45,119 nt of DNA from Thermoflexus hugenholtzii JAD2 (GTDB taxonomy: Bacteria > Chloroflexota > Anaerolineae > Thermoflexales > Thermoflexaceae), in the NCBI RefSeq assembly GCF_900187885.1, contig NZ_FYEK01000032.1, positions 1 through 45,119 on the forward strand, given 5' to 3'. Of this stretch, positions 21,888 to 25,703 are shown one piece after another. The notes below the pieces were generated by a model. It saw only the letters and a list, made by a program, of their open reading frames with translations. It was not told where the DNA came from and ran no database searches. A program made the position numbers and the translations under genes. Every line of letters starts with the position of its first letter. Position 1 is the stretch's first letter.

Positions 21888-21916
21888 ATGATAGTGCGAA
21901 GGGAAAGGGTTGTCAA
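21888..21916 (-). promoter_or_regulatory. Sigma-70 promoter of the B12 riboswitch operon
   Basis: Minus strand TTGACA (21911-21916), 17-nt spacer, TATCAT (21888-21893). Predicted start near 21881, about 20 nt before the riboswitch closing stem. Confidence 0.85.
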
Positions 21917-21941
21917 GCCCGGGCACCGCCCATGCTACAAT
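21910..21941 (+). promoter_or_regulatory. Divergent extended -10 promoter
   Basis: Plus strand TGCTACAAT (extended -10; TACAAT 21936-21941). A TTGTCA at 21910-21915 is 20 nt upstream and overlaps the -35 of the opposing riboswitch promoter. Confidence 0.5.
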
Positions 21942-21975
21942 CAGGCCGCGTCCGATCGAGAGCGGGAGGGATGCG

Positions 21976-23538
21976 GTGGATCAGGTGCTTCTCGCATGGA
22001 TCGCGCTGATCCTGGGGATCCCGGCGGTGGCGGCGGCGCGGCGGTTGCTGGGCCCGCGCGGGCCCAGCCTGGCGATGGCCATGGCGCTGACGGGCGCCCT
22101 GGGGCTCTGGCTGGCGGCAGCCGGACAGCCGCCTCAAGAGGCTGCGTTGCGCATCGAGCGACCCTTTTCGGTTCTCCAGACCGCCTGGGTGTTCCGCCTG
22201 ACTCCGTTTCTCTGGAGCCAGGGGCTGGGAGCTCTCCTGGCCGGGTTCCTGGTCGGATGGATGTGGACGGCTTGCCCAGGACAGGGCCGGCGGTGGCCTC
22301 GGGTCCTGACGCTGGGGATGCTCGTGGCCGCTACCGGGGCGGTCCTGGCGGCGGATCTTTTCACCCTTCTGATGACCTGGGCCGCCCTGGACGCCATGTT
22401 CCTGGCCCTGTTGCTGGTCCGCCGGGGGCAGGCCGTTGTCGACCGCGCGGCGCTGGCCGGGCTGGTGAATGGGGCGGCGCTCCTGGCCCTGTGGGCGGCG
22501 GCCTGGCAGCTCTGGCGCGCCGGCGACAGCCTCTTCTGGAGCCGGATGGGAGGGGAAGCGGCGCTGCCCCTCTTCGTCCTGGCCACCCTCATCCGCCTGG
22601 ACATCTATCCCTTCCACGTGGGGCGTCCCCCTGAACTGGCGGATGAAGTGGACCGCGCGGCGCTGCTTTACATCCTTCCCACCGCTGTGGGCTTGACCTT
22701 CTGGGCCCATCGGGTTCCGATGCTGCAGGGGTGGCCGGGGACCCCCTGGGTGGCCGGAGCGTTGGGGCTCACCGCGGTGCTCGGAGGGCTATGGGCGTGG
22801 GCGGAGCCGGATCCAAGGGCCGGGCTGGTGGAGGCGGCCTGGGGGAGCGCGGCGTGGTGGGCGCTGGTCGCGCTGATGGAGCCGGCTCTCGCCCCGCTGG
22901 CGGCGGCCCTCTGGCCGGTTTGTTTCGCCCTGCTGTTCACCGCGCCCTCCTTTCACCCGGCTTCTCCGTGGGGGTTGCCCGCCCTGGCGGCGATCTTGAC
23001 CCTGGCGGGCGTTCCCCTGATGCCCGGCGCCGCTCTCTTCGCCGGACTGTTCCGCGCTGCGCCGGCATGGGCATGGCCGATTCTGCTGCTCCCACACGGC
23101 CTGCTGCTTAGCGCCCTGGTGCGGGGATGGCTTCGCCCGATGGAGGAGGTGCTCCCCTCGGAGCGAGTCTGGCGGGTTCTCTACGGTCTGGGGCTTACCC
23201 TGGGGGTGGCCGGGTTGATCGGCCTGGGCCTCGCTCTAAGAGCCTGGCGGGAGGAGCTGTCTCCACCCCTTCGGGTGGTCCTGGTCGTCGGGCTGGGGCT
23301 TGCGGTCGGGATCCAGATGCAGGCCCACCGGGTGCATGAGGCGGCCCGGCGGTGGGCGCGGGTGCGTCCGTTCCTGACCCTGGACTGGCTGTATGCGGGC
23401 CTGACGCACCGGATCTCCCGTCCGGCCGCGGCGCTGCAACAGGCGCTGGAGTTCCTGGGCCATCCCGCGGCCATGTGGCTGTGGGCCCTGGTCGTGGGGG
23501 GGATCCTGCTCCTCCTCTGGCAGGGAAGCGCCCGATAG
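21976..23538 (+). CDS. Polytopic membrane protein, degenerate NuoM/NuoN/Mrp antiporter-like
   Basis: 520 residues from GTG 21976 (GGGAGGG 5 nt upstream). About 14 hydrophobic segments, as in proton-pumping subunits of complex I and Mrp antiporters. RLDIYPFHVGRPPELADEV (about residues 214-232) resembles the LPFHxWLPxAH segment of that family. The TM5 Glu of the family (FWEL) appears replaced by Ala in LLMTWAALDAMFLALLL (about 136-152), so proton pumping by the canonical route is doubtful. It stands alone without other complex I genes. Divergent from the B12 transporter operon. Function unknown; family assignment moderate. Confidence 0.7.
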   Translation: MDQVLLAWIALILGIPAVAAARRLLGPRGPSLAMAMALTGALGLWLAAAGQPPQEAALRIERPFSVLQTAWVFRLTPFLWSQGLGALLAGFLVGWMWTACPGQGRRWPRVLTLGMLVAATGAVLAADLFTLLMTWAALDAMFLALLLVRRGQAVVDRAALAGLVNGAALLALWAAAWQLWRAGDSLFWSRMGGEAALPLFVLATLIRLDIYPFHVGRPPELADEVDRAALLYILPTAVGLTFWAHRVPMLQGWPGTPWVAGALGLTAVLGGLWAWAEPDPRAGLVEAAWGSAAWWALVALMEPALAPLAAALWPVCFALLFTAPSFHPASPWGLPALAAILTLAGVPLMPGAALFAGLFRAAPAWAWPILLLPHGLLLSALVRGWLRPMEEVLPSERVWRVLYGLGLTLGVAGLIGLGLALRAWREELSPPLRVVLVVGLGLAVGIQMQAHRVHEAARRWARVRPFLTLDWLYAGLTHRISRPAAALQQALEFLGHPAAMWLWALVVGGILLLLWQGSAR

Positions 23539-23593
23539 CCACACGGAAGGCGCGGAGGCGGGCATCCCGGCTTTGCTGCGGGGCAGATCTTCG

Positions 23594-23623
23594 TTGCTCA
23601 ATCCAATGATTTGCCTTTATAAT
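23594..23623 (+). promoter_or_regulatory. Sigma-70 promoter of the coiled-coil gene
   Basis: TTGCTC (23594-23599), 18-nt spacer, consensus TATAAT (23618-23623). The predicted start leaves a leader of only about 13 nt holding GGGAGG. Confidence 0.7.
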
Positions 23624-23642
23624 GCCCGCGGGGAGGTATGCG

Positions 23643-25148
23643 ATGGCGTGGACGGTGGAGGATCTGCGGGATCTGGCGGAATTGTTGCGGGCGCATCCCG
23701 AGTGGCGGGAGCCCCTGTGGGCCTTGCTGGCCTCCGAGGAAGTGCGCCGGATGCCCGAGCGGATGGAGCAGGGCTTCCGGCGGGCCGCCCGTCTGATCCT
23801 CGCCCTCTACCGCGCCCAGCGGCGGCAGGCTCGGGAGACCGACGCCCGCTTGGCGGAGATGGCCGAGGCCATCCACCGGCTGGGCGAGACCGTGCGCCAC
23901 TTGGCCGAGACCGTGCACGACCTGGCCGAAGCCCAGCACCGCACCGAGGAAAACCTCCAGCGCCTGGCTGAGGCCTTTGTGAACCACCGTCAGGAGTTCC
24001 TGGCCCACCAGGCCCAGGTCAACGCCCGCCTCGAAGAGCTCAGCACGGCGGTCCGTAACCTGACTGAGACGGTTCATCACCTCACTGAAACTGTTCATCA
24101 CCTAAGCGAGATCGTGGGCAATCTGGCCCAGACCCAGCTCGGTCTGGCCGAGGCCCAGCGCCGCGCCGAGGAGAACCTCCAACGCCTGGCCGAGGCCTTC
24201 GTCGCCCATCGCCAGGAGTTCCTGGCCCACCAGGCCCAGGTCAATGCCCACCTCGCTGAGCTCAGGATGGAGGTCCACGCCCTGGTCGAGGCCCAGCGCC
24301 GCACCGAGGAATCCCTCCAGCGCCTGGCCGAGGCCTTCGCCGCTCACCGCCAGGAGTTCCTGGAATTCCGCGCCGAAACCGATCGTCGCTTCGCCGAGCT
24401 GGCCGAAGCCCAGCGCCGCCATTACGAAGAGTTCGCCGCCTACCGGGCCGAGACCGACCGCCGCTTCGCCGAGCTGGCCGAAGCCCAACGCCGTCACTAC
24501 GAGGAGTTCGCCGCCTACCGGGTCGAGACCGATCGTCGGTTTGCCGAGCTGGCCGAGGCCCTCCGGATCCTGACCGAGCGGGTGGACCGGGTGGAGGCCC
24601 GCCTGGATCAGGTGGAAGCCCGCCTGGATCGGGTGGAAGCCCGCCTGGACCGGGTGGAGCGTCGCCAGGAGGACCACAGCCGGGACCTGGGGGAGCTCAA
24701 GTCGATGCGCCTGGAGGCCCTCTACCGGGAGAATCCGGGCCTCTTCCGCCCTCTGCTGCGGCGGGCCGCTGTCGTCCCCGGCGCGCGCAAGATGGAGATC
24801 CTGGAGGAGGCGGAGGCGGCCGGGCGCATCACGGAGGAGGAAGCGAGCCGGGCTGCCCCTCTGGACGCGCTGGTGGAGGGCTTTCACCGGCGGGAGGACC
24901 GCCGGGTGGTTCTGGCGGTGGAGATTTCCTGGCAGGGGACCACGAAGGACGTGGCCCGGGCGGCGGAGCGGGCGGCCATCTTCGCCCGGGCGCTGGGGGT
25001 GGAGGTGATCCCGGTGGTGGCGGCGAAGGAATTGACGGCGCCGGCGCGGCGGATGGCCCGGACGCGGGGGGTGTGGTGGCTGCAGGACGGGAGGGCCTTC
25101 GCCCCTCCAGAGATCCCCGAGGAAGGATCGGAATCGGAAGAGGCCTGA
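23643..25148 (+). CDS. Repeat-built coiled-coil protein with C-terminal nuclease-like domain
   Basis: 501 residues. The N-terminal helical part (1-60) leads into a long coiled coil (about 65-370) assembled from internal repeats: three copies of a 30-40-residue unit (EENLQRLAEAFVAHRQEF core), then 25-residue units (ETDRRFAELAEAQRRHYEEF), then heptads RVEARLD. The repeats are also obvious in DNA. The C-terminal domain (about 385-485) has RRVVLAVEISWQGTTKDVAR, AAERAAIFARALGVEVIPVV and VWWLQDG, resembling DUF3782/PD-(D/E)XK-like domains in which E-x-S replaces E-x-K. ATG 23643 follows GGGAGG. Partner and role are unknown. Confidence 0.75.
   Translation: MAWTVEDLRDLAELLRAHPEWREPLWALLASEEVRRMPERMEQGFRRAARLILALYRAQRRQARETDARLAEMAEAIHRLGETVRHLAETVHDLAEAQHRTEENLQRLAEAFVNHRQEFLAHQAQVNARLEELSTAVRNLTETVHHLTETVHHLSEIVGNLAQTQLGLAEAQRRAEENLQRLAEAFVAHRQEFLAHQAQVNAHLAELRMEVHALVEAQRRTEESLQRLAEAFAAHRQEFLEFRAETDRRFAELAEAQRRHYEEFAAYRAETDRRFAELAEAQRRHYEEFAAYRVETDRRFAELAEALRILTERVDRVEARLDQVEARLDRVEARLDRVERRQEDHSRDLGELKSMRLEALYRENPGLFRPLLRRAAVVPGARKMEILEEAEAAGRITEEEASRAAPLDALVEGFHRREDRRVVLAVEISWQGTTKDVARAAERAAIFARALGVEVIPVVAAKELTAPARRMARTRGVWWLQDGRAFAPPEIPEEGSESEEA
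24369..24566 (+). repeat. Tandem 75-bp repeat inside the coiled-coil gene
   Basis: Copies at 24369-24443 and 24444-24518 and a partial third from 24519, about 90% alike, each coding 25 residues. It is followed by 21-bp heptad units at 24588-24650. Likely to vary in copy number between strains. Confidence 0.85.
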
Positions 25149-25274
25149 TCCCCTTTGTCCGGGCTGGCTGATCCGAGCGGGCTGAACGGCTGGATCTACC
25201 CGGATCCCATGGCGACGACCTTTCCCCTGAGGCGTGGAGATGGCTCCCCCACATATCCGGATCGGAGGCGGCGG

Positions 25275-25703
25275 ATGCCGATCTATCGCGGCCCGATCCC
25301 CGAGCCTGTGCGGGCCCAGCTGCGGGAGCTGGCGGGGGCCTGGCTGCCCGAGCCCGATCTCGAGCGGGCCTATCTGCATGTGGGGACCCCCCTGGCCCGT
25401 CTGATCCTGCGCGCGATGCCCGACCCGCTCCCGGGCGTGGATCCGGCGGCGGTGACCCTGGGCCGGCACATCTTCATGGACCCTGCTTACTGGCCCCCCG
25501 ATCGCCTCTCGAGGTTCCGCCTGCTGGTCCACGAGCTGATCCATGTGCGTCAATGGCGGGAGCGCGGGGTTCTGGGATTCCTGTGGGCGTATCTGCGCGA
25601 TTACCTCGCCCGCCGCTACGCGGGGGTGCGCCTGGAGCAGGAGGCCGAGGCGATCGCCGCGGCGGCGGCGGAACAATGGCAGGCCCGCGGTCTTCCCGTG
25701 TAA
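25275..25703 (+). CDS. Small HExxH metallopeptidase-like protein
   Basis: 142 residues from ATG 25275 (GGAGG upstream). LLVHELIHVRQW (His86, Glu87, His90) is a zinc-peptidase motif like that of DUF4157-type proteins. A Glu-rich helix RLEQEAEAIAAAAAEQW near 125 may supply the third ligand. No signal peptide is evident. DUF4157 domains are often found with toxins or secreted effectors, but this one is single-domain. Substrate unknown. The gene is followed 47 nt later by the flavoprotein gene. Confidence 0.75.
   Translation: MPIYRGPIPEPVRAQLRELAGAWLPEPDLERAYLHVGTPLARLILRAMPDPLPGVDPAAVTLGRHIFMDPAYWPPDRLSRFRLLVHELIHVRQWRERGVLGFLWAYLRDYLARRYAGVRLEQEAEAIAAAAAEQWQARGLPV

Follow-up and report, generated by a model that had tools for sequence, protein, structure and literature searches.

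An intact open reading frame of Thermoflexus hugenholtzii JAD2 encodes a 501-aa protein composed of an N-terminal head, a long coiled-coil rod and a C-terminal tip with a predicted PD-(D/E)XK fold. Thermoflexus is a hot-spring bacterium, and the gene is one member of a family whose rods, and sometimes heads, differ between close relatives. We hold this head-rod-tip anatomy and its turnover with high confidence. Our overall proposal is that the family is chromosomal and recombines, its coiled-coil proteins with their nuclease-like tips perhaps serving as conflict or defence effectors in the manner of Rpn; this proposal is tentative and falls a little short of an even chance.

The gene lies in the window, the whole 45,119-nt stretch of contig NZ_FYEK01000032.1 that was analysed. 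Its product is divided into a head of 41 aa, a rod of 306 aa and a C-terminal domain of 154 aa, with the following features:

23594-23623, + strand: putative promoter with a weak -35 TTGCTC (23594-23599), an 18-nt spacer and a perfect -10 TATAAT (23618-23623); sequence reading
23630-23636, + strand: ribosome-binding site GGGGAGG; sequence reading
23643-25148, + strand: whole gene, head, coiled-coil rod and predicted PD-(D/E)XK-fold domain; ORF call, AlphaFold
23643-23765, + strand: N-terminal head, 41 aa, MAWTVEDLRDLAELLRAHPEWREPLWALLASEEVRRMPERM, predicted to form two short helices; family alignment, AlphaFold
23766-24683, + strand: coiled-coil rod, 306 aa, period 3.54, proline-free; periodicity, AlphaFold
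23860-23929, + strand: 21-bp (7-aa) tandem repeats; Tandem Repeats Finder
23970-24225, + strand: 256-bp tract, 97.7% identical to the C20 paralogue; sequence comparison
24058-24103, + strand: 21-bp tandem repeats; Tandem Repeats Finder
24144-24400, + strand: 138-bp (46-aa) tandem repeat, 1.9 copies, score 332; Tandem Repeats Finder
24368-24561, + strand: 75-bp (25-aa) tandem repeat, 2.6 copies, score 304; Tandem Repeats Finder
24583-24658, + strand: 21-bp (7-aa) tandem repeat, 3.6 copies, score 124; Tandem Repeats Finder
24684-25145, + strand: C-terminal domain, 154 aa, type A, predicted PD-(D/E)XK fold; AF2 model, fold search
24864-24971, + strand: signature residues D408 (24864-24866), E427 (24921-24923), S429 (24927-24929), D436 (24948-24950), R439 (24957-24959) and R443 (24969-24971); 61-sequence alignment

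The rod (residues 42-347) lacks proline and consists of repeats of 46, 25 and 7 residues, in agreement with the first-pass annotation of this DNA, which had described a repeat-built coiled coil of about 300 residues. Its hydrophobic periodicity peaked at 3.54 residues with a power of 29.1, compared to a maximum of 12.5 among 300 shuffles, and this period is compatible with units of 25 (7+7+11) and 46 residues. Tandem Repeats Finder gave units of 138, 75 and 21 bp, each a multiple of three; the 75- and 21-bp sizes named earlier were recovered, but a unit of about 120 bp was not, the largest being 138 bp. The full-length AlphaFold model had a low pTM and was used for secondary structure only, placing helices at residues 5-17 and 19-35 in the head and at 39-178 and 183-363, followed by a mixed alpha/beta domain. 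Matches of the coil to DUF16, SMC, DndD, JetC and similar proteins in profile searches were all below cut-offs, and kinship with them was dismissed as generic coiled-coil similarity.

An AF2 model of the isolated C-terminal domain, built with nine relatives, gave a pLDDT of 90.3 and a pTM of 0.85. The closest solved structures in a VIA-align search were those of EndoMS/NucS (5gke, Z 12.2; 2vld, Z 12.0; 5gkj, Z 10.8), aligned over 105-109 residues at 14-16% identity. Next came 1y88 (Z 8.7) and PaqCI, Can2, NucC, BsmI and FokI (Z about 5.5-7.5), with AF1548 likewise ranked after EndoMS/NucS. Structure prediction and a fold search had been called for earlier, and by this model the domain is a PD-(D/E)XK fold with an alpha-beta-beta-beta-alpha-beta core. 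The domain had no match among Pfam, NCBIfam and PADLOC models, and its profile found nothing among PDB sequences.

D408, E427, S429, D436, R439 and R443 (D61, E80, S82, D89, R92 and R96 in domain numbering) were each retained in 58-60 of 61 homologues, which belong to Thermoflexus and to other families of Chloroflexota; a few of these come from overlapping loci, so that not all are independent. The catalytic D...(D/E)-x-K pattern is not complete, as the acidic residues are kept and the lysine position is occupied by serine in 59 of the 61 sequences and by lysine in none. The serine noticed in the first reading is thus a conserved feature of the whole family. Given its near-invariance, it is ancestral to the clade; recent decay of the catalytic lysine was ruled out, as serine is family-wide. 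Nuclease activity may have been lost, since the canonical lysine is missing. A profile alignment with the nuclease part of DUF3782 set D61, E80 and S82 opposite D, E and K or R (E 0.0013 in a one-against-one comparison, low probability).

The gene appears, from its leader, to be transcribed alone. The TATAAT box lies about 20 nt 5' of the ATG, consistent with the very short leader first reported, but the description of a consensus promoter holds for the -10 element only, because the -35 is weak and a sigma-70 scan called no promoter at this leader. A second in-frame ATG, upstream at 23622, shares bases with the TATAAT box; the start at 23643, with GGGGAGG before it, is the better choice. Most family leaders contain a GGAGG-like site, and a -10 hexamer matching at least five of six positions within 45 nt 5' of the start was found in 30 of 33 family leaders, compared to 2.9 in shuffles. 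This holds even though the upstream sequences are unrelated.

A search for paralogues, suggested by the first-pass annotation, detected further family matches in at least ten places in the JAD2 genome, several of them incomplete at contig ends because the repeats break the assembly. Contig ends fall inside family members on C8, C22, C27, C35, C36, C37, C54 and C77, so copy number and rods are under-counted in this draft. The complete sister genome (G004, a single contig) contains ten members. Paralogues share the head and rod motifs and differ in their nuclease-fold tips, which are of E-x-S types A, B and C or of type D, with ELDG or EVDG...S-x-K. Residues T4, D7, L11, W21, L25, E33 and P38 were invariant among ten diverse heads. 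One member of the sister genome (943k) has a G-E-A-K tip and a different N-terminus, and locus L179 of genome G005 joins the family head to a canonical E-L-K DUF3782 nuclease. Other Thermoflexus DUF3782 nucleases (L145, L177 and L181-L184) mostly have E-x-R rather than E-x-K at the catalytic lysine position.

Forty-four collected open reading frames join the head to an E-x-S tip, and their rods range from 43 to 476 aa. All 12 rods examined were in frame and proline-free, and 10 kept a periodicity of 3.54-3.56. Among 301 Chloroflexota genomes the head was found in 26, of which 22 also matched the C-domain profile; this profile includes some coil and counts some coil-only matches, and the head search is the cleaner of the two.

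Comparison with the sister genome revealed turnover at loci whose flanks are closely alike (about 95-96% identical at the window locus). Rod lengths in JAD2 and the sister genome, respectively, were 306 and 165 aa at the window locus, 175 and 302 aa at C20, 186 and 122 aa at C75, and 228 and 168 aa at C27, so that repeat numbers, which the first reading had proposed to compare, differed in each of the four same-locus pairs that could be followed over their full length. The two conditions set against the first reading, a C-terminal fold unrelated to nucleases and an invariant repeat number, were thus both answered in its favour. JAD2 rods could be mis-assembled in the draft; the sister genome, however, consists of one contig, and it differs wherever a locus could be compared. 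The expectation that rod length would vary while both ends were kept was borne out for the rods and usually for the ends, but not for the head at C27. At this locus (compared to G004:499k) the head was 43.9% identical, the C-domain 96.1% and the outer flanks 96-97%, and the C27 head was 95.1% identical to that of the window gene. By these identities, the head is read as replaced, with the C-domain and both outer flanks orthologous.

Shorter tracts are shared between copies as well. The 256-bp tract shared with the C20 paralogue was not found whole in any of the sister-genome family loci fetched. In the sister genome, two loci whose heads are only 71% identical have C-domains that differ by 3 mismatches in 459 nt and are preceded by 228 identical nt. 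The distant sister-genome loci L132 and L133 (C1:2675k and 2923k) are nearly identical over a stretch of about 690 bases, at the end of which both have one and the same type D tip; this is read as a fresh conversion or duplication. Unequal exchange and gene conversion among the paralogues best account for the rod, head and tract patterns, a reading drawn from two genomes that leaves the direction of events unfixed. In a separate JAD2 copy at C27:86k (L041, G000:C27:84000-88500), about 570 bp comprising the rod and part of the tip and kept in the sister genome are absent, and this copy, at about 86.4 kb, looks like a decayed one.

The ends of the proteins evolve under constraint. In same-locus comparisons dN/dS was 0.11-0.28 for C-domains and up to 0.11 for retained heads (0.06 for the window head), values which indicate that heads and C-domains are under purifying selection. 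The C-domain dS at the window locus was 0.20, compared to 0.04-0.11 in neighboring genes, as expected if sequence had been imported from paralogues.

The surroundings of the gene show no visible mobile element. The window domain had no match in phage records, plasmids or viral contigs, and phage or plasmid cargo was ruled out on this ground; a distant family member matches one megaplasmid (Thermomicrobium roseum NC_011961). Genes near the window gene are housekeeping-like or uncharacterised, with no obvious defence genes among them. The next gene (25155-25703, + strand) matches eCIS_core (PF13699, E 5e-7) and has an HExxH-type motif, HELIH. With regard to polymorphic toxins, the head has no visible signal sequence and the adjoining genes are unrelated at the loci inspected. 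When window positions 21910-25700 were compared with the more distant Thermoflexus genomes G001, G002, G003, G005 and G008, the genes to the left and right of the locus were on different contigs, with no family gene next to them. The locus may therefore sit at a rearrangement point, with insertion and rearrangement indistinguishable where the flanks are split over contigs.

Several known systems resemble parts of this protein. DUF3782 proteins (PF12644) of archaea and bacteria likewise have a coiled coil followed by a PD-(D/E)XK-fold domain, and such proteins were already known from a paper that covers coiled-coil structure, not function (PMC4786415). The resemblance to DUF3782 noted earlier stands for architecture and fold but not as a Pfam match, as neither the gene nor its C-domain matches the model, which has own-genome matches at C3 and C37. 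The window clade differs from DUF3782 in having E-x-S rather than E-x-K/R, an additional conserved DxxRxxxR and shuffled rods, and some Thermoflexus DUF3782 proteins carry the family head, as at L179. In Rpn, a defence nuclease of the PD-(D/E)XK type, the helical part that mediates oligomerisation differs through in-frame repeats (PMC10327210). Rpn (PF04754) and the window family have in common the PD-(D/E)XK superfamily, in-frame repeat variation and duplicated genes, but here the variable part precedes the nuclease fold, the repeats are of 7, 25 and 46 aa compared to 4 aa in Rpn, and the window gene has no Pfam match to Rpn/YhgA-like (PF04754). An Rpn-like internal start (for a small inhibitor) was considered at M355, the Met of LKSM, and rejected since the candidate Shine-Dalgarno sequence before it was not conserved in homologues. 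The type D paralogue tip C27:7-765 had a weak match, below the cut-off (E 0.00093), to NA-iREase1 (PF22722), the NACHT-associated inactive restriction endonuclease; there is no NACHT ATPase here, and the C-domain of the window gene has no such match. No paper on the head-rod-tip family was found in the part of the literature covered. The E-x-S clade is new, as are the use of one head across tip types and the shuffling of rods, heads and tracts shown directly between close relatives.

Stand-alone chromosomal genes, ten or more per Thermoflexus genome, encode these head-rod-tip proteins. We propose, from the comparison of two genomes, that shared repeats would allow unequal exchange and conversion among the copies. 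Recombination would lengthen or shorten rods, spread tracts among copies and sometimes exchange heads or tips, with selection keeping head and tip intact. The rods would oligomerise and bring at least two tips together, the clustered tips could bind and perhaps cut nucleic acid, and the head may sense or anchor the protein to a target. The likeliest role, with Rpn nucleases as the nearest functional model, is that of an intracellular conflict or anti-phage effector acting as they do, although we hold even this role somewhat doubtful. The missing lysine, the negative searches of phage, plasmid and viral-contig sequences and of PADLOC, the ordinary neighbours and the lack of a conserved internal start all weigh against it. 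A stronger form, in which a defence repertoire diversifies by ectopic recombination, with sensor heads and nuclease-fold tips that can be interchanged, rods that can be adjusted, and among the tips a catalytic E-x-S site where a helix arginine replaces the lysine, seems improbable.

The same signature could instead mark a dead nuclease, the tip serving to bind DNA or RNA at the end of a coiled-coil tether and the proteins being architectural or sensory rather than cutting. The serine in place of the catalytic lysine in nearly every sequence, with lysine in none, points that way, as do the strongly conserved arginines, which could bind phosphates. Residues equivalent to Asp408 and Glu427 usually bind metal in PD-(D/E)XK domains, however, and their near-invariance in 61 sequences would be unusual for a binding-only domain; we consider this explanation unlikely. 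A further reading, in which the tip is an active nuclease working in DNA repair much as EndoMS/NucS does and the rod dimerises it, is very unlikely. EndoMS/NucS shares its catalytic-domain fold (5gke, 2vld) with the window C-domain and is the closest solved one, with Z clearly above the others, and a thermophilic host and stable chromosomal genes would suit a repair enzyme, yet the family is patchy in the phylum (head in 26 of 301 genomes) and has many shuffling copies per genome. The window protein also differs from EndoMS/NucS in its long rod and in having serine for the missing lysine, and the N-terminal DNA-binding domain of NucS is absent, the residues before the C-domain forming a long helix without a Pfam NucS match.

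We give equally little credence to the explanation that rod repeats slip or recombine without functional gain, their variation being mutational noise that the rod tolerates. High-identity repeats recombine unaided, and rods of 43-476 aa among open reading frames with head and E-x-S tip are consistent with it. Against this are the reading frame and lack of proline in 12 of 12 rods and the 3.54-3.56 period in 10 of them, the purifying selection indicated for heads and tips, and the exchange of heads besides rods; moreover, it is silent on what the protein does.

The turnover described here is rapid and modular, and affects nuclease-fold proteins of close thermophilic relatives outside any visible mobile element. 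The diversity of the family is easily overlooked, since the family breaks draft assemblies. In its conserved E-x-S signature the family offers a clear variation on a famous active site, and Pfam, NCBIfam and PADLOC have no model that covers the domain. A defensive role, if these proteins have one, would place them next to Rpn as another example of a nuclease diversified by repeat length.
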